Shown: positions 2,447 through 13,121, counted from the first letter of the stretch. The stretch: DNA of 53,746 bases from Candidatus Brockarchaeota archaeon (GCA_017601245.1 JAFNJB010000014.1:1-53746), one strand, 5' to 3'. Numbers and translations: made by a program. The notes: a model not told the origin generated them from the letters alone.

Positions 2447-2463
2447 TACTACGTTTGGTAGTA
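2447..2463. promoter_or_regulatory. Putative BlaI-family operator TACTAC-GTTTG-GTAGTA
   Basis: Perfect 6-bp inverted repeat with 5-nt spacer between the TATA-like ACTATATAAG (2467-2476) and the start of the 1933..2442 CDS. Confidence 0.75.
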
Positions 2464-2547
2464 GATACTATATAAGTTTTTCTTAAAAAGCATAAAATAG
2501 AGAAATCTTAAATAAACTAGTAGAATGGAATTTCAGAACAAGAAAAA

Positions 2548-3693
2548 TTGGAAATCACAATTAGAGAGAGTCGTGATGTAGGTAGGGTAATTAAGCTATA
2601 CGAACAACATAAAGGTGTTCCTTTTACGTATTTGATGAATATTCCGCTTGTAAAAATGCTAAGCCAGCTAGAATCATTCAAAATCTTTTTAGCCGAAGTT
2701 AACGATGAGATAGTTGGCTGCATCCATGCATTAGACTATGTTTACGATTGTGGGTATATTGGAGGCCTCTTAGTCCATAAAGATTTTAGAAGAATGGGAA
2801 TAGGTGGCAAATTGTTGAAAACGGCCCTAAGCAGTCTCCGTGCAAAATACGTTTATCTTTTTGTAGAAGAGAAAAACACCGTTGCAATAAACCTCTTTGA
2901 GAAAACGGGTTTCAAAAAGATCTATAGGAGGCTCTTATACACCGTTTCAGTACCATTAAACAATGGTTTTAAGCTACAGATAACAAGTGAAGTTGAATGG
3001 GAAGGTTTGAAGAATGCCATTGGCTTTTTAGAAAGGAAAGGAATCGTTAACTTTGGTTATTATCCGATTAAGATGACAAGAAACGTGTTTGAAGATTTGA
3101 AAGCCAAGGGTAAAGTATTAAGATGCGGTGGAGTTATAGCTATAATTGAGAATTTGCATGGATTGATAGTCGGAGACAATCTTTATACTTTCAACGACTA
3201 TGTCTTTAAGCATTTGCAGAAAGTTGATTTCTCGAGAAAAATCGTTGAGATAAACCCTTTCTACATAGAACCTGAACCATCAGACTTGGTCAGTTTAATA
3301 AATCATCTGTTAACACTTGGAGAAGTACATATTAAAACTTATGATAGAGACCCTGTGGTAATTAAGCTACCTTTAGCAGGAAAAATAGGAGCATTAACGA
3401 TGGAGTATAAAGGAGCTTGTACTCAGTATGTCTATAACGGAGGAGGATTGCTTGAAGTCGTTGACACACAAATGTACTACGGCAGGAAGGCTCCCAATCA
3501 GGTTGCCGAGCTTTTCGGAGTCCACTTCTACGGAGACTTAACGATGGATGCGGTAATAGTCAACTTCGACCACCCGATAACAAGGGATAAGAAGCAGGAA
3601 GACCTGTTCAACCCGTTCCTCCTGTATGATGCTGCGATAGACAGGTACCCCAGCAATGCAACAGTACTGGTGAGAGCGGGTGTCAAAGACTAG
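2548..3693 (+). CDS. GNAT-family N-acetyltransferase with C-terminal extension
   Basis: GGLLVHKDFRRMGIGGKLL acetyl-CoA-binding motif; EKNTVAINLFEKTGFKKIYRR. Confidence 0.85.
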   Translation: MEITIRESRDVGRVIKLYEQHKGVPFTYLMNIPLVKMLSQLESFKIFLAEVNDEIVGCIHALDYVYDCGYIGGLLVHKDFRRMGIGGKLLKTALSSLRAKYVYLFVEEKNTVAINLFEKTGFKKIYRRLLYTVSVPLNNGFKLQITSEVEWEGLKNAIGFLERKGIVNFGYYPIKMTRNVFEDLKAKGKVLRCGGVIAIIENLHGLIVGDNLYTFNDYVFKHLQKVDFSRKIVEINPFYIEPEPSDLVSLINHLLTLGEVHIKTYDRDPVVIKLPLAGKIGALTMEYKGACTQYVYNGGGLLEVVDTQMYYGRKAPNQVAELFGVHFYGDLTMDAVIVNFDHPITRDKKQEDLFNPFLLYDAAIDRYPSNATVLVRAGVKD

Positions 3694-3753
3694 CGTGCCA
3701 AACGGCACCAGCATCTCAACAATGGCAGAATCCTGTTTTCTAGGTTTTTGAGG

Positions 3754-4275
3754 TTAAGGCCTAGGTATGATTTTTAGGAGGAGCCAGTTTATGAATCCGA
3801 TTAGGAGCGCGAGCCATAGGATTAGGATTATTTTGTAGCCGATTTCGCGTGGCCATCTTGCTGCTGGGGGGAAGTATTTTGCTTCTTCTTTAGCGCCTTG
3901 GTACATGATTATGTAACTTGTGGCCATGAAGAATATTGCGAGCATTGGGTCTTTGAACCATGATCCTAGTGCTAAGCCGATTATGAGCACTGTTAAGCCA
4001 GCGTATTTGAAGGCCCTGGCCCTGGGGGACTTCCTTACTTCAGGAGGAATCTCAACCTTTAAACGGTACCACTCGGGGCCGAAATGCTTCCTCATATACC
4101 AGATTGCATAGGTAAATCCAATTAAAACCGTTGGAATGATTGCTGCCATACTTATTACGAACTCTCCCTCCGAGAGGGATGCTGTTAAAGCGAAGTAGAG
4201 AAGGGGAGTTCCAAGTATCATTAATAAAGCTACAATGATAAGTATTGCATATGCCTTAAACTTACTGTTCAACAT
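3754..4275 (-). CDS. Integral membrane protein, paralogue of 4703..5281
   Basis: 173 aa, hydrophobic, FGPEWYRLKVEIPPE and YQGAKEEAKY motifs shared with neighbour. Confidence 0.75.
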   Translation of the reverse strand: MLNSKFKAYAILIIVALLMILGTPLLYFALTASLSEGEFVISMAAIIPTVLIGFTYAIWYMRKHFGPEWYRLKVEIPPEVRKSPRARAFKYAGLTVLIIGLALGSWFKDPMLAIFFMATSYIIMYQGAKEEAKYFPPAARWPREIGYKIILILWLALLIGFINWLLLKIIPRP

Positions 4276-4361
4276 GATATTTGTAACAATTCTTTGTTAT
4301 TAAGTTTTTCTTTATACAAGTAACTAAGCCACCAACATTTTTAATTAGTGACATTGACGCT

Positions 4362-4616
4362 TTGTCTCGGGAAGCATTTTCAAAGGAACAGAGTGTAACA
4401 GAGGTGAAGAAAGCGTTATCCAACAAGATAGATGCAGTGATTAAGATGGTTGAGAAGGATGCCTATCATGGTGCTATTAACAAGTTGATGAACGATATAT
4501 TGGCTAAAATGGATGGAGACCCTAAGCCAAAGGACTGGATTATCAACTCCATTGCTCAAGTCTCGTTGAAAAGGCATATCGATTGGATTATCACCAATAT
4601 TAGAGCATTACTTTAG
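4362..4616 (+). CDS. Small hypothetical protein (84 aa)
   Basis: ORF with coding-like composition, TTG start; no confident family. Confidence 0.5.
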   Translation: MSREAFSKEQSVTEVKKALSNKIDAVIKMVEKDAYHGAINKLMNDILAKMDGDPKPKDWIINSIAQVSLKRHIDWIITNIRALL

Positions 4617-4702
4617 GACTATTTTTTATTCCCTATATTTTTACTAAATAAAGCGGAATCTAGAAAATATTTATAATTGCAGATTTATACTACATCCTTT
4701 AG

Positions 4703-5281
4703 TTGGTTAGCGAGAAAGTTAAAGCCTATTCGATAAGTATCGGAATAGCATTGCTTATAATTCTTGGGATACCACTTGCCTACTATGCTCTCCACAGAGG
4801 TATTTCCGAGCTGGAGTTGAAGATAGGTCTTTGTTTTAGTGTTCCCATGGGTGTGGCTGTGTTTATTTACCTTGTTCTGTATCCAAGGATAAAGCATGGG
4901 CCCGAATGGTATAAGGTGGAGTTTAGAAAGGCTGTTGATTATGAAATTCCGCGGGAGGTTGCCAGAAAGGCTAGACAGATTAAACTAATTGGTCTGCTCG
5001 TTTTATTTCTGGGCGTGTCTTTTGGAATAATAGTTCAAATGATTGAGCTTGCAGCATTATTCGCATTAGTCGGTTTGACCATTGTTTTTCAGGGTCAACG
5101 TAAGGAAGCGAAGTATCTGTCCGAAGAGGCAAGGAAAGAGTATGAGAGAATATATGGGGATAGGCTTAGGAAGATGTGGCTGATCCATATTCTGGCACGC
5201 CTAATCATATTAGTAGCTGGAGTGATAATCGCCCTACTCACACTCTGGCAAATACAAGCGTTTATGAGGACGCTGGCCTAA
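4703..5281 (+). CDS. Integral membrane protein, paralogue of 3754..4275
   Basis: 192 aa, HGPEWYKVEF and FQGQRKEAKY motifs; TATA-like element upstream. Confidence 0.75.
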   Translation: MVSEKVKAYSISIGIALLIILGIPLAYYALHRGISELELKIGLCFSVPMGVAVFIYLVLYPRIKHGPEWYKVEFRKAVDYEIPREVARKARQIKLIGLLVLFLGVSFGIIVQMIELAALFALVGLTIVFQGQRKEAKYLSEEARKEYERIYGDRLRKMWLIHILARLIILVAGVIIALLTLWQIQAFMRTLA

Positions 5282-5296
5282 TCTCTCAAATCTCTT

Positions 5297-6256
5297 CTAT
5301 TTCTCCTGTCTTCTTGTGAATATCATGTAAGAGGCGAATAGGAAGACTATTGGAAAGACTATGAGTACTACGATGTCTATTAGACGTGTTGAAATAACCG
5401 TCGGAATGCTAGTCAATGTTCTTCGACTGAATTCAATAGGCCTAGTAGCATAGCCGAATAGTAGGCTGGTGATCTGCGTATAGTGGTAGTTTATTGAGAA
5501 AGCCTGTATCATGCTCGAGATTTCCGCCTCCCTCCTCATGTAGTCCAAGTATTCTTGTGGAAAGATGCTTGGGGATGTGAAGTTTCTAAATTGTCTTTGC
5601 GACATGTTAAAAGCTTGAAAGCTTCTCACGGGGGGAGGCCCTAAGACAGCAGTTGCAATAAGGCTACTTATTGCCGACAATATAAATGCGAAGAAGATCC
5701 AAATGCCTATGCTAATTATGAGTGAGTGGCTTGACTTGCTTGAGAGTGTTGAAATGAATAATGAGAATGCATAATATGCAAATGAGAAGACTATTGAGAA
5801 AACTATGAACAAACAGACTCTTGCAATATCGTCCATTGTTACTGCAATGTTATGTAGAAGTATAGAGATGGATACTGCTGCAAAGGATGATAGAGTTACT
5901 GCTAGACTTATTACTGCTAAGGCGGAGATTATCTTACCATTAATAACATCCTCTCTGTATATTGGTCTTGAAAGCAATATCCTAAGTGTCCCCCGCTCTC
6001 TTTCCCCAGATATAGCGTCAAATGCCAACGCGATTCCAAGCAACGGAGCCATGTAAGCCATTGTTGTGGCTATTGCAGAAAAAACTGAAGCTACGGGCCT
6101 ACCTGCTTGTTGAAAAGCAGTTATTACCCGGAAAATGGTTGAGTAGGTACTGGCTACTGAAAACAATAGCAATACGCCTACGATTAACCAGAGTCTCTTA
6201 CTTGTTATGGTGTCCGTGAATTCTTTTCTTGCAATAGATAAAGCGTCGCTTATCAT
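5297..6256 (-). CDS. ABC-2 type transporter permease
   Basis: ALAFDAISGERERGTLRILLSRPIYREDVINGK signature of ABC-2 permeases; multiple TM segments. Confidence 0.92.
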   Translation of the reverse strand: MISDALSIARKEFTDTITSKRLWLIVGVLLLFSVASTYSTIFRVITAFQQAGRPVASVFSAIATTMAYMAPLLGIALAFDAISGERERGTLRILLSRPIYREDVINGKIISALAVISLAVTLSSFAAVSISILLHNIAVTMDDIARVCLFIVFSIVFSFAYYAFSLFISTLSSKSSHSLIISIGIWIFFAFILSAISSLIATAVLGPPPVRSFQAFNMSQRQFRNFTSPSIFPQEYLDYMRREAEISSMIQAFSINYHYTQITSLLFGYATRPIEFSRRTLTSIPTVISTRLIDIVVLIVFPIVFLFASYMIFTRRQEK

Positions 6257-6259
6257 TTT

Positions 6260-7216
6260 TTATCCACCCTCCTGGTAGAAACGGTATATTTCATCCCAAG
6301 ACGGCTCTATTGGCTTTAGAGACTCCACCGCATCCTTGAACTGAGGCTTTGAAACAAGGGGTAAGAGTTCGCCCCATATTTCTCTCCTCGATAACACTGT
6401 AACGTGATTCTCATTCTGCTTTATCTCTATTACGTCAGATATTGACCTTATTTCTTGCAGTAGCATATCAATACCGGATTTAACTCGAAGCTCATAACGA
6501 TACCCCTTCGCTTCCCTAACAGATTGATATAGTTCTTCTACACTTCCCTGTACGAGAAGCTTTCCTCCACGTATTACTGCAGCATGAGTGCATACCATAC
6601 CCACCTCGTAAAGCAGGTGTGTCGACATGAGGATTGTCTTACCCTCCTTGTTCATACTCTTAACAAGGTTTCTGAATTCAGCAGCACCTTCAGGATCTAT
6701 CCCGACCGTGGGCTCGTCGAATATTAAGAGCTCAGGATCCTTCAACAGGGCCTGGGCTATTCCGAGCCTCTGCCTCATACCTCTCGAAAATGTTGAAACC
6801 TTATCATTAGCCCTGTCCTTTAAGCCAACCATCTCAAGTGTCTCAAGCGCTCTCTTCTTCCTTTGGTCCGATGGTATCTTATCTAAAGTAGCTAGGAAGA
6901 CGAGGTTTTCAAGCGCAGTCATATGGTCGTAGAAGCCGAAGCCCTCTGGAAGAAGCCCTACTCTTCTTCTTATCTCTACGGATTCTTTAACAACATCGAA
7001 CCCAAGCACTTTCGCATTCCCGCTCGTAGGCAGAATCAGACCCACAAGTATCGATATCAGTGTTGTTTTCCCAGAGCCATTTGGTCCAAAGAGGCCGTAT
7101 GTACTAGCTTTGGGTATTTTCATGCTTATTCCATCAAGGGCCTTAATTCCAGAACCACCTTTACCATATATCTTAACAAGGTTCTCGACTTCTATAGCTA
7201 AATCCATTTTCATCAC
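6260..7216 (-). CDS. ABC transporter ATP-binding protein
   Basis: Walker A GPNGSGKTT, signature SRGMRQRLGIAQ, Walker B LLIFDEPTVGID. Confidence 0.96.
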   Translation of the reverse strand: MMKMDLAIEVENLVKIYGKGGSGIKALDGISMKIPKASTYGLFGPNGSGKTTLISILVGLILPTSGNAKVLGFDVVKESVEIRRRVGLLPEGFGFYDHMTALENLVFLATLDKIPSDQRKKRALETLEMVGLKDRANDKVSTFSRGMRQRLGIAQALLKDPELLIFDEPTVGIDPEGAAEFRNLVKSMNKEGKTILMSTHLLYEVGMVCTHAAVIRGGKLLVQGSVEELYQSVREAKGYRYELRVKSGIDMLLQEIRSISDVIEIKQNENHVTVLSRREIWGELLPLVSKPQFKDAVESLKPIEPSWDEIYRFYQEGG

Positions 7217-8976
7217 CTCCTTCCATATCTTCGATATATCATGAAGGTTGCTGCAGCCATGATTACAACGATTAAAACTCCTATTAGGACAGTTTCTCCT
7301 CTTTGCTTCACATACACGTGTAAGCTCCGAGCTGGAGCCTGACTCTGATCTGCTTTAAGGCTTAGAGTAATATAGTAGTCGCCAGGACTTACATCAGCAT
7401 CGCTCGTAACCGTTAATGAGAAAACAGCACTTTCCTGAGGCTTAAGCAGAGATACCAATTCTGGACTTACTTTAACACTGAAACCATCAGGCACGTCTGA
7501 AACCCCAAGGATAAGATTTGAAAGCGAACTATAGCCAGTATTTTTAGCCTCAACCTGGAATGTTATTGACTCTCCAGCCGTTGTCTCACAATAGAAGTTT
7601 TGAGTAATATAAGAAATAGTGTAGGAACCTAATATTCCTAAGCTCAGGTTAAGCCTTTCAACAGAGTCTCCGGAGCTAGCTTCCAATGTTATGAGTATTA
7701 TATTTGGTTCGGCGAGTGGAGGTATGTTTACAAACAGGTTTAGATTCTTGCTCTCACCAGTTTTCAAATATATTTTAGACAGAACGTTCCCAGACTCGTC
7801 CTTAACCAACCAGCTATAGCCGGAAGGAAGTCCTCTTACACTAATGTTTACAATCCCATCCGAATCACCTCTATTTTCGACCGTTATGGGAAATTTGGCA
7901 GTACTTCCAGCATAAGCATCGACATACGGTATGTTTGCATAAAGTTTCAACTTGGGAGTACCTTTCACTACAATGATTTTAAGCGGTAGTTTTGATTCAA
8001 AAATAGCTGTTTTAAGCAATACTATTGTTTCATATTCTTTAGGGATCTCATCAGCCGGTATTTCTAATTTCACCTTCGCGTTAATAGATTCTCCCACTCC
8101 TAACGAGACACCTTGAAGACTGCTACCATCGCTCCTAATAATGATCCCACTCCAATTGTCTGGTAAAATAAGGGATAGTGTTCCCGTAAACCTTTTTGTC
8201 AAGACATTCTTTATTGTTAAATCGAAAACTACCGTTGAACCTGGTACTGTCCGTACTATTGGATATGTTGAAGAGAGTATTTGAATATTGGGCTCTTTAA
8301 CGTAAACTAGGATTGTTCTCTCCCGGGTAATTGAACCCGATATTCTAACCGTTATGTTGTAAATTCCTTGTGCATTGTATGGAGGCTGTATTTTTAGAGT
8401 TAGGCTTTGAACACTACCGGGACTCAACGTTAGGTTAATAACTTCAGCCGAACCCGAGCAAACACTTACTTCCCATCCCTCTGGCGCCTTGGTTGAAATT
8501 GTTAATGTCTCCTCCCCTGATCCCTTGTTTTCTATAGAAAGTGGTACATTTACCTCTGAAAAAGCCTCTACTTTTATGTATACTTGAGGTATTGAAAGTC
8601 GTAACGCATAGTCAAGTATTACCTCTCCTAAATCAACATAATTGTTCACACTCACAGCTATTAACTTACTTTCATACCCTTCTTTTTCTATTTGAATCCG
8701 ATAGGTTCCCGATTGAAGCGTTATACTAAAACCTCCACTTAAAAGCGTTTTAGTCTTCGCTACGAATGCTCCAGAAGTATCGTAGACAGTTACTGTTGCA
8801 TAGCCTAAGGGATTTCCCTCGACGTCTAGAGCCCTTCCATAAACCGTGTAGTATGTCGGTTCTTGAACATATTGGCGTTGAGCATAAATTTGAATTACGG
8901 GAAGGATAGAGGTCAATACTATTAGGAGCAATAGGAAACCATGTGAAACCATTCCATGCTCGATTTTCATACTCAT
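7213..8976 (-). CDS. Secreted, membrane-anchored protein with carboxypeptidase-regulatory-like and repeated NEW3/CARDB-like beta domains
   Basis: ORF track gives start 9000, but that start lies beyond the 8980-8996 palindrome; MSMKIEHG at 8976 is the more likely start. Repeated SxxVxxxxxxENxG pattern and C-terminal TM VLIGVLIVVIMAAATFMIYRRYGRR. Confidence 0.82.
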   Translation of the reverse strand: MSMKIEHGMVSHGFLLLLIVLTSILPVIQIYAQRQYVQEPTYYTVYGRALDVEGNPLGYATVTVYDTSGAFVAKTKTLLSGGFSITLQSGTYRIQIEKEGYESKLIAVSVNNYVDLGEVILDYALRLSIPQVYIKVEAFSEVNVPLSIENKGSGEETLTISTKAPEGWEVSVCSGSAEVINLTLSPGSVQSLTLKIQPPYNAQGIYNITVRISGSITRERTILVYVKEPNIQILSSTYPIVRTVPGSTVVFDLTIKNVLTKRFTGTLSLILPDNWSGIIIRSDGSSLQGVSLGVGESINAKVKLEIPADEIPKEYETIVLLKTAIFESKLPLKIIVVKGTPKLKLYANIPYVDAYAGSTAKFPITVENRGDSDGIVNISVRGLPSGYSWLVKDESGNVLSKIYLKTGESKNLNLFVNIPPLAEPNIILITLEASSGDSVERLNLSLGILGSYTISYITQNFYCETTAGESITFQVEAKNTGYSSLSNLILGVSDVPDGFSVKVSPELVSLLKPQESAVFSLTVTSDADVSPGDYYITLSLKADQSQAPARSLHVYVKQRGETVLIGVLIVVIMAAATFMIYRRYGRR

Positions 8977-8979
8977 TGT

Positions 8980-8996
8980 TACTACTGGCAGTAGTA
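8980..8996. promoter_or_regulatory. Putative BlaI-family operator TACTAC-TGGCA-GTAGTA
   Basis: Perfect inverted repeat (extended TTACTAC...GTAGTAA) between TATA-like CTTATAAAG (minus strand, 9003-9011) and the start at 8976. Confidence 0.78.
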
Positions 8997-9053
8997 ACAC
9001 TACTTTATAAGCTTTATTGCTCGGAATTCAAAATATGGAAAAAGTTAAATAGT

Positions 9054-9070
9054 TACTACATATGGTAGTA
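9054..9070. promoter_or_regulatory. Putative BlaI-family operator TACTAC-ATATG-GTAGTA
   Basis: Perfect inverted repeat upstream of the BlaI-like CDS at 9087. Confidence 0.78.
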
Positions 9071-9086
9071 TTTTAGGGAAAGAAAA

Positions 9087-9512
9087 ATGTCTAGAAAGTC
9101 ATTGGTATCCCAATATAATATCGGTGAAAAAGAACTCAAAGCATTTTTAGGACCTTTAGAGGTAAACGTGATAGAGATCATCTGGAGTTCGAAAAAGCCA
9201 CTCACCGTCAGGGAGGTTTACGAGAAACTAAAGCGGAAGAGAAAGATTGCCTATACCACTGTAATGACTACGATGGATAGGCTTTATGACAAAGGATTAT
9301 TAGACAGGAGGGCTGAAAAGGGGCGTGGAGGTATTTTCTATATTTACTGGCCTAAGTTTGAGAAAAATAACTTCAAGAAGTCAGCAGTCCACGAAGTACT
9401 AAACAGCCTTATAGAGAATTTTGGCGAGATAGTTGCAAACTATTTTGTTGAAAAAATCTCTTCTAGAGACCAAGAGCTTAAACAAAAGCTTGAAAGAGCT
9501 TTAAGAAAGTAG
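9087..9512 (+). CDS. BlaI/MecI/CopY-family winged-helix repressor
   Basis: LGPLEVNVIEIIWSSKKPLTVREVYEKLKRKRKIAYTTVMTTMDRLYDKGLLDRR is the BlaI/MecI DNA-binding domain pattern. Confidence 0.93.
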   Translation: MSRKSLVSQYNIGEKELKAFLGPLEVNVIEIIWSSKKPLTVREVYEKLKRKRKIAYTTVMTTMDRLYDKGLLDRRAEKGRGGIFYIYWPKFEKNNFKKSAVHEVLNSLIENFGEIVANYFVEKISSRDQELKQKLERALRK

Positions 9513-9521
9513 TGGTTTAAT

Positions 9522-10853
9522 ATGGCAGTTTTAGAAAGCCTTCTAGTACAGTTTTTCCAACCCTATTTCTACTACTCTACGAGTATTTTAATAGTCTCAT
9601 TCATTTGCATCAAGCTGATCACTAGATATAATCTACTTCTTACCACAAGGACTAAGAGCATAATGTACTTAATTCCCCTAACCATTCCAATTTTGCTGAT
9701 TACTTTTATTTCGCCTTGGCCAACTAGATTCTTTTCTATTGAAAAGAGATTACTTTTCTATAACCAATTACTTCTTGATAATTCATTGTTAATACGGCCT
9801 TGGGGCCCCAAACCCTTCCTTCCTAATATACCGCATATTGGAAGAACAGTCTTCATCCAGCCTCTAAACCTGCTTTACACAATTGGTTTTGCATTATCTT
9901 TAACATATGTGATTTTAACATTAACTCTTGGCGATATTATAGTTAAAAAAGCTTTTCACATCATAGAGCTTAGTTCCGGAGAATATGAGCCTTTACAGAG
10001 AAAGGTTTTGGAGCTGGCTTCTAAAATGGGGATAAGTAAACCTAAGATAGGACTTGTAGAAGATTTGAGGCCAAACGCTTTCGTCGTAGGTTATGGGAAA
10101 AAGACGATGCTTGTTTTCTCATTAGGACTCTTAAAAACTCTAACGAAGAAAGAGTTGACTGCAGTAGTAGCTCACGAATTAGCACATATTAAAAACCGTG
10201 ATTTTATTTTCAAAACCTTAACGACTGCACTATCACTGTTTTCATTCTTCAATCCGTTTTCACACTTATCTGCAGTATCGGCACAAAGGGAGAGAGAAAG
10301 CTTGGCAGATGAAGATAGTGTAAAAATACTGGGAGGAACCAGCTTGCTTGTAAGGGCAATAGTTAAAATAAACAAGGTAGCTACCAAGTTACCGAGGGAA
10401 AGTTTTACAATACGCTTAACGTCGAGCCTATTCCTAACATCCCCCATTTCCTTAAGAATATTGTTTTCAACGCATCCAAAGCTCGAGTACAGGATAATGA
10501 AAATTGAGGAAATAGATAAAGTGAAAAACGTTAGTAAGGATAATATTATTTTTTCAATGTTATTGTCCGCAGTGATTATTGCAACAGGCATTTTAACCAT
10601 TTATATTCTTGCCTCTATTCAAACATCCTTCATGAGACAGTATATTCCTTGGATGATGTTTAGAATGTCTCCTCAGAAGATTTTCATTCCAAAGCCGGGC
10701 CTTAATAATATGGTAGATAATGCACGTTTACCAAGTTTTCTTAAACATAGGGATTCTGTTAACTCACTTATTCTAGGAGAAAATTTGGGAATTAAAAACT
10801 ACTTGAAGCCTCGTTCAAAAATATCTTCTAGCCATGTTATTATTTTTACTTAA
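9522..10853 (+). CDS. Membrane-embedded zinc metalloprotease (M48/M56, BlaR1-like topology)
   Basis: HELAH motif in VVAHELAHIKNRD, downstream ERESLADEDSV, several TM segments; immediately follows the BlaI-like gene. Confidence 0.88.
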   Translation: MAVLESLLVQFFQPYFYYSTSILIVSFICIKLITRYNLLLTTRTKSIMYLIPLTIPILLITFISPWPTRFFSIEKRLLFYNQLLLDNSLLIRPWGPKPFLPNIPHIGRTVFIQPLNLLYTIGFALSLTYVILTLTLGDIIVKKAFHIIELSSGEYEPLQRKVLELASKMGISKPKIGLVEDLRPNAFVVGYGKKTMLVFSLGLLKTLTKKELTAVVAHELAHIKNRDFIFKTLTTALSLFSFFNPFSHLSAVSAQRERESLADEDSVKILGGTSLLVRAIVKINKVATKLPRESFTIRLTSSLFLTSPISLRILFSTHPKLEYRIMKIEEIDKVKNVSKDNIIFSMLLSAVIIATGILTIYILASIQTSFMRQYIPWMMFRMSPQKIFIPKPGLNNMVDNARLPSFLKHRDSVNSLILGENLGIKNYLKPRSKISSSHVIIFT

Positions 10854-10858
10854 TATGC

Positions 10859-12091
10859 TTAGGTTAATTGTGGCCTTGCTTCAAGAGTAACAGGGACATT
10901 GAGAATTTGATTGCTTCTGATTATTGTTAGAGTAACGGTTTGGCCTGGACGAGTATACTCCTCGAGAAAAGCAAAAAGATCATCTCCATTCGAGATCTTG
11001 AACCCGTCTATCCCTATTATGATATCCCCACCAATCACAAACCTCGTTCCCTTGATTATAACATGTTTGTTTCCACCCTGAAGACCTGCTTTAGCAGCAG
11101 GCCCATTAGGCGTAGTACTGATTATAAGCCAGCCGTATGTTACATTCACATTCATTGCTTTAGCTAGATCATAAGTCACATCCATACCCGTTACTCCCAG
11201 CCAAGGATGTTGATCATAATATCCCTTTTTAATAAGGGATTCTATTTCACGTAGAATCGTATTCGACGGAATCGCAAAGCCGAGTCCTTGCGAGTCCTTT
11301 ACTATAGCAGTGGTGATTCCAACAACCTCTCCGCGTAAGTTGAGGAGCGGCCCTCCAGAATTACCCGGGTTTATTGGAGCAGTCGTCTGAATACAATTAG
11401 CTATGGGATAGCCTCCTGTAAGGTCCTCAGTAATCGTCCTGCCGAGGGCACTCACTATTCCGGAGCTCATTGAACCAGCTAAACCATAGGGATTTCCTAT
11501 GGCTACGACGGGGTCTCCTACTTTAAGCGTTGACGAGCTTACTATTTTTAGTGGCTTAAATTCCTCTAAGGGAGCTTTTACTGTTAGAACAGCAAGGTCA
11601 GAGTAAGGGTCGAATCCCTTTAAATCAGCCGGGTAAGCATTGCCACTTCTAAATCTTACAGTAATGTCGTGTGCATTGCTAACAACATGATAATTAGTAA
11701 TTACTACAAATTGGTCTTCAAAAAGGTATACGAAACCTGAGCCTTGAGTAGTGCTGTAATAGGGACGATAGAAAATATCGTATTGCACAATAGTTCCAGT
11801 TATAAGGACAACAGAGTCTCTAACTTTCTCATATAGTTCAGAAAGAGAGAAATTACCATCTGAAGTATATATCGTCACCACGCTACAGTCGGTAAACTGT
11901 ATTGCTGAAATACGGTTTTCAAGATTTGAAATCCTATTCTGAAGCTCGTTAATCCTATTTAGGATTGTTAGAATGCCAATTGAGAATCCTATTAATATTC
12001 CTATTACGATACATGCTAGAATTAAGATAATTTTTAAATCTTTGAAAGATGTTTTCACTTGGAACCCTTCGTATGGAGCGCTTTCATACAT
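10859..12091 (-). CDS. HtrA/DegP-like serine protease with PDZ domain and N-terminal TM anchor
   Basis: ITNYHVV, DLAVLTVK, TTAPINPGNSGGPLLN catalytic motifs; C-terminal PDZ GDIIIGIDGFKISNGDDLFAFLE. Confidence 0.95.
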   Translation of the reverse strand: MYESAPYEGFQVKTSFKDLKIILILACIVIGILIGFSIGILTILNRINELQNRISNLENRISAIQFTDCSVVTIYTSDGNFSLSELYEKVRDSVVLITGTIVQYDIFYRPYYSTTQGSGFVYLFEDQFVVITNYHVVSNAHDITVRFRSGNAYPADLKGFDPYSDLAVLTVKAPLEEFKPLKIVSSSTLKVGDPVVAIGNPYGLAGSMSSGIVSALGRTITEDLTGGYPIANCIQTTAPINPGNSGGPLLNLRGEVVGITTAIVKDSQGLGFAIPSNTILREIESLIKKGYYDQHPWLGVTGMDVTYDLAKAMNVNVTYGWLIISTTPNGPAAKAGLQGGNKHVIIKGTRFVIGGDIIIGIDGFKISNGDDLFAFLEEYTRPGQTVTLTIIRSNQILNVPVTLEARPQLT

Positions 12092-12098
12092 TCCAAGC

Positions 12099-12115
12099 TA
12101 CTATTATCAGTAGTA
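12099..12115. promoter_or_regulatory. Putative BlaI-family operator TACTAT-TATCA-GTAGTA (one mismatch)
   Basis: Same 6-5-6 architecture 7 nt upstream of the HtrA-like start; AT-rich TATA-like TTATTAAT beyond it. Confidence 0.68.
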
Positions 12116-12161
12116 GGCTATTAATAAGCATTTCTGAAAAATGGTAAAGAAATCAGTAAAA

Positions 12162-13017: not shown

Positions 13018-13116
13018 GCGGGGGTTGCCGAGCCTGGTCAAACGGGACTGACCAAAGGCGCTGGACTTAAGATCCAGTCCCGTAGGGGTTCGTGGGTTCA
13101 AATCCCACCCCCCGCA
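13018..13116 (+). tRNA. tRNA-Leu(UAA) containing a 14-nt D-loop intron (13042..13055)
   Basis: Acceptor GCGGGGG/CCCCCGC, anticodon arm CTGGA-CTTAAGA-TCCAG, long variable arm, T arm GTGGG-TTCAAAT-CCCAC; removing 14 nt restores GCCGAGCCTGGTCAAAGGC. Confidence 0.92.
13042..13055 (+). other. Noncanonical tRNA intron (D-loop), ACGGGACTGACCAA
   Basis: 4-bp helix GGTC/GACC (13036-13039 / 13050-13053) flanked by two 3-nt AAA bulges; cutting after the second A of each gives the intron. Confidence 0.75.
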
Positions 13117-13121
13117 TTTCT

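Follow-up and report, generated by a model that had tools for sequence, protein, structure and literature searches.

Putative BlaI operators at four promoters of a Brockarchaeota archaeon, with a membrane protease as candidate sensor

The locus described here raises the question of whether four copies of a palindrome, each in front of a transcription unit, are operators for the BlaI-family repressor encoded among them and, if so, how that repressor would be released. The window, by which we mean the whole stretch of DNA analysed, comprises 53,746 nt from a hot-spring archaeon (Candidatus Brockarchaeota archaeon, GCA_017601245.1 JAFNJB010000014.1:1-53746).

Four dyads and the promoters that carry them

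An earlier sequence-only reading of this DNA had placed palindromes of 6-5-6 geometry at four sites, and four such dyads are found exactly there (Table 1). Three match TACTAC-N5-GTAGTA exactly; the remaining dyad (12099-12115) reads TACTAT-TATCA-GTAGTA. Searching the genome (1,295,755 bases, 1.30 Mb, in 61 contigs) for TACTAC-N5-GTAGTA with up to one mismatch returned the four window dyads and no others, as did a search for exact TACTAY-N5-RTAGTA, for which the reversed-pattern control gave 0. The motif, which could have proved frequent genome-wide, is rare, with four sites in the whole genome; Markov models of the window predict between 0 and ~0.6 dyads per Mb. Of the spacings k = 0-12 in TACTA-Nk-TAGTA, the window contains only k = 7, four times over. 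With a tolerance of two mismatches, the window taken by itself stands out less (6 matches versus a shuffle mean of 2.1), and hence the strength of the case rests on exactness, spacing and conservation.

The dyads front the genes that had been named: a small secreted protein, an operon for a NEW3 protein and an ABC-2 exporter, the BlaI-like repressor with its protease, and an HtrA-like protease. The count of four transcription units was likewise correct. Profile searches identified Trypsin_2 and PDZ domains in the HtrA-type protein; the secreted protein of 169 aa matched no entry of Pfam or NCBIfam and no PDB sequence.

Table 1 Putative operators, TATA-like boxes and associated genes in the window
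Feature	Position	Strand	Description
Operator 1, BlaI-type (putative)	2447..2463	-	TACTACCAAACGTAGTA on the gene's strand; promoter of the secreted 169-aa protein
TATA-like box of operator 1	2469..2476	-	CTTATATA; ends 5 nt before operator 1
Target 1, small secreted/anchored protein, 169 aa	1933..2442	-	N-terminal hydrophobic segment 9-27
Operator 2, BlaI-type (putative)	8980..8996	-	TACTACTGCCAGTAGTA; NEW3-ABC operon promoter; kept in G002-G007
TATA-like box of operator 2	9004..9011	-	CTTATAAA; ends 7 nt before operator 2
Target 2a, NEW3/CarboxypepD_reg-like secreted protein	7213..8976	-	Signal segment and C-terminal TM
Target 2b, ABC-transporter ATPase (DrrA-like)	6260..7216	-	
Target 2c, ABC-2 permease	5297..6256	-	
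Operator 3, BlaI-type (putative)	9054..9070	+	TACTACATATGGTAGTA; blaI-M56 promoter; kept upstream of archaeal blaI
Weak TATA-like box of operator 3	9044..9051	+	GTTAAATA; ends 2 nt before operator 3
Regulator, BlaI/MecI/CopY-family repressor, 141 aa	9087..9512	+	Sole Penicillinase_R match in genome
Partner, BlaR1/HtpX-like membrane zinc metalloprotease	9522..10853	+	HELAH; 4 TM segments
Operator 4, BlaI-type (putative)	12099..12115	-	TACTACTGATAATAGTA; htrA promoter; kept in G002-G007 and G010
TATA-like box of operator 4	12121..12128	-	CTTATTAA; ends 5 nt before operator 4; read from sequence
Target 4, HtrA/DegP-like serine protease	10859..12091	-	N-terminal TM anchor and PDZ domain

Each dyad had been described as lying a few nucleotides upstream of a start codon, at the place of a transcription start downstream of a TATA-like box. 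The distance to the start codon is indeed short at three promoters (4 nt for the secreted protein, start 2442; 3 nt for NEW3; 7 nt for htrA, start 12091), but the description is generous for blaI (16 nt, start 9087). Every dyad is preceded, at a distance of 2-7 nt, by a TATA-like box, so that the dyad lies between the box and the inferred transcription start. Archaeal promoters have a usual distance between TATA box and transcription start, and by this distance transcription would begin at or just after the dyad; this part of the description remains an inference. Most transcripts from these promoters would be nearly leaderless. For NEW3, we preferred the ATG at 8976, 3 nt past operator 2, as better placed than an upstream GTG at 9000.

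Other features of the window are recorded here for completeness. A GNAT-type ORF (2548-3693) encodes 381 aa, compared with 293-303 aa for intact copies in relatives. Nothing in the other genomes of the genus matches its last 81 aa (3448-3690), and the ORF therefore looks like a fusion or a recombination or assembly junction. Two small membrane proteins in the middle of the cluster, at 3754-4275 (minus strand) and 4703-5281 (plus strand), form a local paralogous pair: they are 39% identical, lack a Pfam match and have no dyad. Positions 13019-13118 resemble a tRNA gene, with GTTCAAATCCCACCCCCCGC near the end; ARAGORN did not call it, and it is perhaps an intron-bearing tRNA.

Conservation of the dyad and its relation to known operators

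The genus set consisted of the source genome and six other BlaI-bearing Candidatus Brockarchaeota genomes (G002-G007). In all six, the NEW3-ABC / blaI-M56 order is kept with dyads at the equivalent promoters, and htrA lies near blaI-M56 where the contig extends that far, the G007 copy being on another contig. Across the seven genomes, exact TACTAY-N5-RTAGTA occurs at 29 sites (reversed-pattern control, 8), and 26 of these are at the four promoters, htrA of G004 being entered on two contigs. Two dyads on separate contigs (G004:C1 and G007:C112) are htrA promoters, and the G003 htrA dyad is one base off (TACTAC-AAGCA-CTAGTA). Three further dyads (G004:C23, G003:C108 and G006:C34) were rejected as extra targets, since they lie inside the coding sequence of unrelated genes.

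The secreted-protein gene adjoins a ligase gene in the window and is located elsewhere, unlinked, in the relatives. Its orthologues in G003-G006 nevertheless carry the dyad, which immediately follows TTTATATA and closely precedes the start codon. No orthologue was found in G002 or G007, both incomplete genomes. Orthologues in four genomes with no match to this BlaI (G008, G011, G021 and G025) lack the dyad. The association of dyad with BlaI at this gene is thus 5/5 versus 0/4 (Fisher p = 0.008), although the five genomes belong to one genus and are not independent. Similarly, in G010, a BlaI-bearing member of the same order, htrA lies on another contig and has an exact dyad, and no dyad precedes htrA in BlaI-less G008, G012 and G021. 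There is also no dyad in front of the htrA homologues of three BlaI-bearing genomes (G321, G373 and G018). We therefore rejected HtrA as a universal target, and infer that regulon content varies. The dyad is kept upstream of orthologues, including the unlinked secreted-protein gene, and is missing from orthologous promoters of BlaI-less relatives, as a regulon tied to this BlaI clade would require. We conclude that the predicted four-unit dyad regulon is conserved in the genus.

A scan of public genomes with the BlaI alignment added Bathyarchaeia, other Thermoproteota and one Methanomassiliicoccus. Of 24 archaeal blaI genes, 18 have an exact TACTA-N7-TAGTA upstream and 23 have it with at most one mismatch, whereas each other spacing from 0 to 15 gave 0/24 exact matches; the six genes without an exact dyad include those of L070, L074 and L076. 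Among loci new to the set in a scan of 400 genomes of the phylum, G321 has exact dyads (three sites) and G373 and G263 have dyads with one mismatch, and four more distant BlaI relatives from that scan (32-36% identity) have none. The BlaI clade is patchy, being found in 20 of the 400 genomes at E<=1e-15, and a branch with strong support (97/96) divides the archaeal proteins from the nearest bacterial BlaIs. The dyad is exact at k = 7 in 8 of 59 bacterial loci, with at most one at other spacings, indicating that the operator class is not purely archaeal.

Outside the genus, the exporter behind the dyad changes: in several Bathyarchaeia, in L064 (Thermoproteota) and in Methanomassiliicoccus, a MacB/FtsX permease with an ABC ATPase replaces the ABC-2 type. 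Before MacB/FtsX-type exporters in L064, L065, L067, L069 and L075, the dyads stand in tandem, 33-42 bp apart (126 bp in L075). HtrA, single secreted proteins and an ArsR-type regulator are also found behind or near dyads. What stays constant is BlaI with the M56-type protease, joined in most loci by an ABC exporter. This exporter, of the ABC-2/NEW3 or MacB/FtsX type, is predicted from the dyads to be co-regulated, as, often, is HtrA. The ArsR-type regulator, of 104-118 aa, is found behind a dyad repeatedly in Bathyarchaeia (L067:6176-6532, L172:3251-3565 and L176:2126-2440) and may add a further layer of regulation there. PADLOC yielded nothing of weight, and our literature searches, whose coverage excluded most subscription papers, found no archaeal BlaI regulon.

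Alignment of 49 sites yielded near-invariant arms (1.9-2.0 bits) and an effectively random spacer (~0.1 bit), with flanks that extend the palindrome to a full operator of GY-TACTAY-N5-RTAGTA-RC. Note that the arm values are biased upwards because the sites were partly picked by the motif; those for flanks and spacer are unbiased. In G003-G007 (L044, L045, L046, L047 and L048), a single palindromic TTTATAAA is enclosed by two divergent dyads, themselves 34-35 bp apart, and could be the TATA box of both the blaI and NEW3 promoters; the corresponding region of the window measures 74 bp and has two boxes.

The kinship with TACA/TGTA cores proposed in the sequence-only reading was imprecise, since the window sites read TACTAY-N5-RTAGTA. 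A cop-box reading (TACANNTGTA) was rejected: its one copy in the window is intragenic and at chance level. Published CopY operators are RNYKACANNYGTMRNY, the CopR/CopY cop box being KACANNTGTA with an extent of 10-16 bp, and the CxC motif of these repressors is metal-responsive (PMC7253601). The archaeal system resembles CopR/CopY in protein family and in having a dyad operator within the promoter; it differs in lacking both the cop box and, its BlaI being cysteine-free, the CxC metal motif (PMC7253601).

Judged by operator sequence, the closest demonstrated case is the 6-5-6 class of Clostridium thermocellum BlaI_0696, which binds GTCTAT inverted repeats 5 nt apart in DAP-seq and EMSA (PMC8457756). 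The two share a 6-5-6 inverted repeat whose inner half is of CTAT type, co-encoded BlaR1-type proteins and, by prediction in the archaeon, a very small regulon and autoregulation. They differ in the outer operator bases, which are GT in C. thermocellum and TA in the archaeon, and in setting, C. thermocellum being a bacterium with a proposed beta-lactam response. Moreover, its operators come in strict pairs, whereas those of the archaeal secreted-protein and htrA promoters are single; the tandem dyads before MacB/FtsX-type exporters do recall the paired arrangement.

The repressor and its membrane protease

The 141-aa BlaI matches PF03965 (Penicillinase_R) with E=8.2e-23 over residues 21-136 (profile 1-114/115), a full-length domain with the winged helix and the C-terminal dimerisation part. 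Its PDB matches are MecI/BlaI and, as is a feature of the family, a dyad operator lies upstream of its own gene. The protein contains no cysteine, has no CxC motif of the CopY branch and does not reach the cut-off of the CopY_TcrY profile. The genome encodes one Penicillinase_R protein, and the dyad follows the presence of BlaI; the proposal that this protein is the natural candidate regulator is therefore supported, albeit without binding data. The cleavage pair of staphylococcal BlaI, Asn101-Phe102, is not conserved; the aligned stretch is ANYFVE here and mostly ASYLVE in congeners. Cleavage at another site is possible.

The partner protease meets the M56 description of four TM helices around a cytoplasmic HExxH zinc protease domain: hydropathy and an AlphaFold model give two TM segments, a loop, TM3, the protease domain and TM4. 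HExxH is invariant across 18 archaeal proteins, as is the downstream ligand region (E259..D263). The protein matches both M48 and M56 profiles (for M56, PF05569, 64.2 bits versus a cut-off of 31), and misses the cut-off of the NCBIfam HtpX equivalog (M48B; best 94.1 bits versus 369). Foldseek matched it to ZMPSTE24/Ste24, BlaR1 (8ext/8exq) and HtpX; global TM-scores are low, ~0.3, with an alignment at 1.9 A for the HtpX domain. The C-terminal 67 aa lack a confident fold, and the tail varies within the clade. Profiles and model revealed no penicillin-binding sensor domain, residues 377-443 having pLDDT <50 and no domain match; from this and the fold matches we infer that the BlaR1 penicillin sensor is absent. 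The protease thus resembles HtpX/Ste24 M48 proteins in the fold of its catalytic domain and in its best NCBIfam profiles, but it is co-encoded with BlaI behind a BlaI-type operator, and its four-TM layout is BlaR1-like. Adjacency of blaI and the M56 gene is kept in Brockarchaeota, Bathyarchaeia and Methanomassiliicoccus, and also among distant BlaI relatives.

Set beside BlaI-BlaR1/MecI-MecR1 of Staphylococcus and Bacillus, the archaeal system has the same Penicillinase_R repressor and membrane zinc metalloprotease in one operon, a divergent target, dyad operators at every promoter including that of the repressor, and a protease fold that matches BlaR1. In contrast, its operator is TACTAY-N5-RTAGTA rather than TACA/TGTA, it has TATA promoters and no penicillin-binding sensor domain, and its predicted targets are an exporter, HtrA and a secreted protein instead of beta-lactamase or PBP2a. 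Sensor domain and TACA/TGTA operator were both tested and not met, so it is not a strict member of that group. By analogy, these comparisons point to a circuit that would work like BlaI-BlaR1 without the penicillin sensor.

Proposed circuit, competing explanations and significance

We propose that a BlaI dimer would occupy GY-TACTAY-N5-RTAGTA-RC between TATA box and start site. A repressor seated there should block transcription of all four units: blaI with the M56/M48 protease, the NEW3 and ABC-2 exporter operon, htrA and the small secreted protein. We infer that the membrane protease acts as the sensor; a cell-surface signal would activate its cytoplasmic HExxH domain, BlaI would be inactivated, and the four units would come on together, serving extracytoplasmic protein quality control and export. 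We assign this explanation a probability of about 0.83. In the absence of binding data, we are nonetheless very confident that the four dyads serve the encoded BlaI as operators. That they mediate repression, including autoregulation, is highly likely from their position, with no transcription data. Inactivation of BlaI by the M56 protease is a reasonable expectation from family and targets, with no cleavage data, and on the same grounds the chances are even that the inducing condition is surface or secreted-protein stress. The envelope-stress meaning is inferred from target identity and not shown. Counting against the explanation are the loss of N101-F102, the lack of a folded extracellular sensor domain, the htrA genes without a dyad, the six archaeal blaI genes with no exact dyad upstream and the non-independence of the genus genomes.

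BlaI might instead repress at the dyads but be released directly by a small ligand or metal, in a CopY-like or dipeptide-like manner, leaving the protease to HtpX-like quality control. A precedent exists in Bacillus licheniformis, where a peptidoglycan dipeptide frees BlaI from its operator in vitro (PMC3305447). The protease is about equally close to HtpX (M48) and BlaR1 (M56) in profiles and fold, and the unconserved cleavage pair and missing sensor domain are also as this explanation would have them. However, a BlaI without cysteine cannot have the CopY CxC metal site. To our knowledge archaea lack murein, which argues against a dipeptide-like ligand, and the blaI-M56 adjacency from Brockarchaeota to Methanomassiliicoccus, extending to distant BlaI relatives, likewise speaks against direct release. 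We consider direct release unlikely, though it cannot be set aside.

Doubts about the dyads themselves carry far less weight. Another transcription factor could bind them, BlaI being merely a neighbour; there are no binding data for BlaI, and in some Bathyarchaeia the dyad fronts the gene of an ArsR-type regulator. Yet across classes the dyad goes with the BlaI clade, at the unlinked secreted-protein and htrA promoters it is confined to genomes with BlaI, identical arms and spacing occur upstream of some bacterial blaI genes, and a bacterial BlaI, that of C. thermocellum, binds the same geometry; we regard a different factor as very improbable. Only their shortness, their palindromic form and their clustering within 10 kb would speak for a mobile palindromic repeat or for a chance grouping in AT-rich DNA. 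Either origin can practically be discounted: the arms are constant while spacers and flanks differ among copies, the position after the TATA box is fixed, the genome holds no further copies, and the fixed spacing is conserved across archaeal classes, with sites at the same promoters throughout the genus.

Operators of the encoded BlaI, with release by the protease upon a surface signal, remain our preferred reading. With it come a defined operator, one candidate for the repressor, another for the sensor protease, and a regulon of four promoters that is conserved in uncultured archaea of hot springs and sediments. How surface trouble is sensed and relayed to promoters is poorly understood in archaea. 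The reading also suggests that BlaI/BlaR-type modules are used far beyond antibiotic resistance. Only tentatively, and at slightly less than even odds, do we suggest a widespread form of archaeal transmembrane signalling, in which a sensor-less BlaR1/HtpX-type protease and its own BlaI clade place an exporter, HtrA and secreted proteins under surface-stress control. If true, this would perhaps be an archaeal counterpart of bacterial envelope-stress systems, with a function unrelated to beta-lactams.
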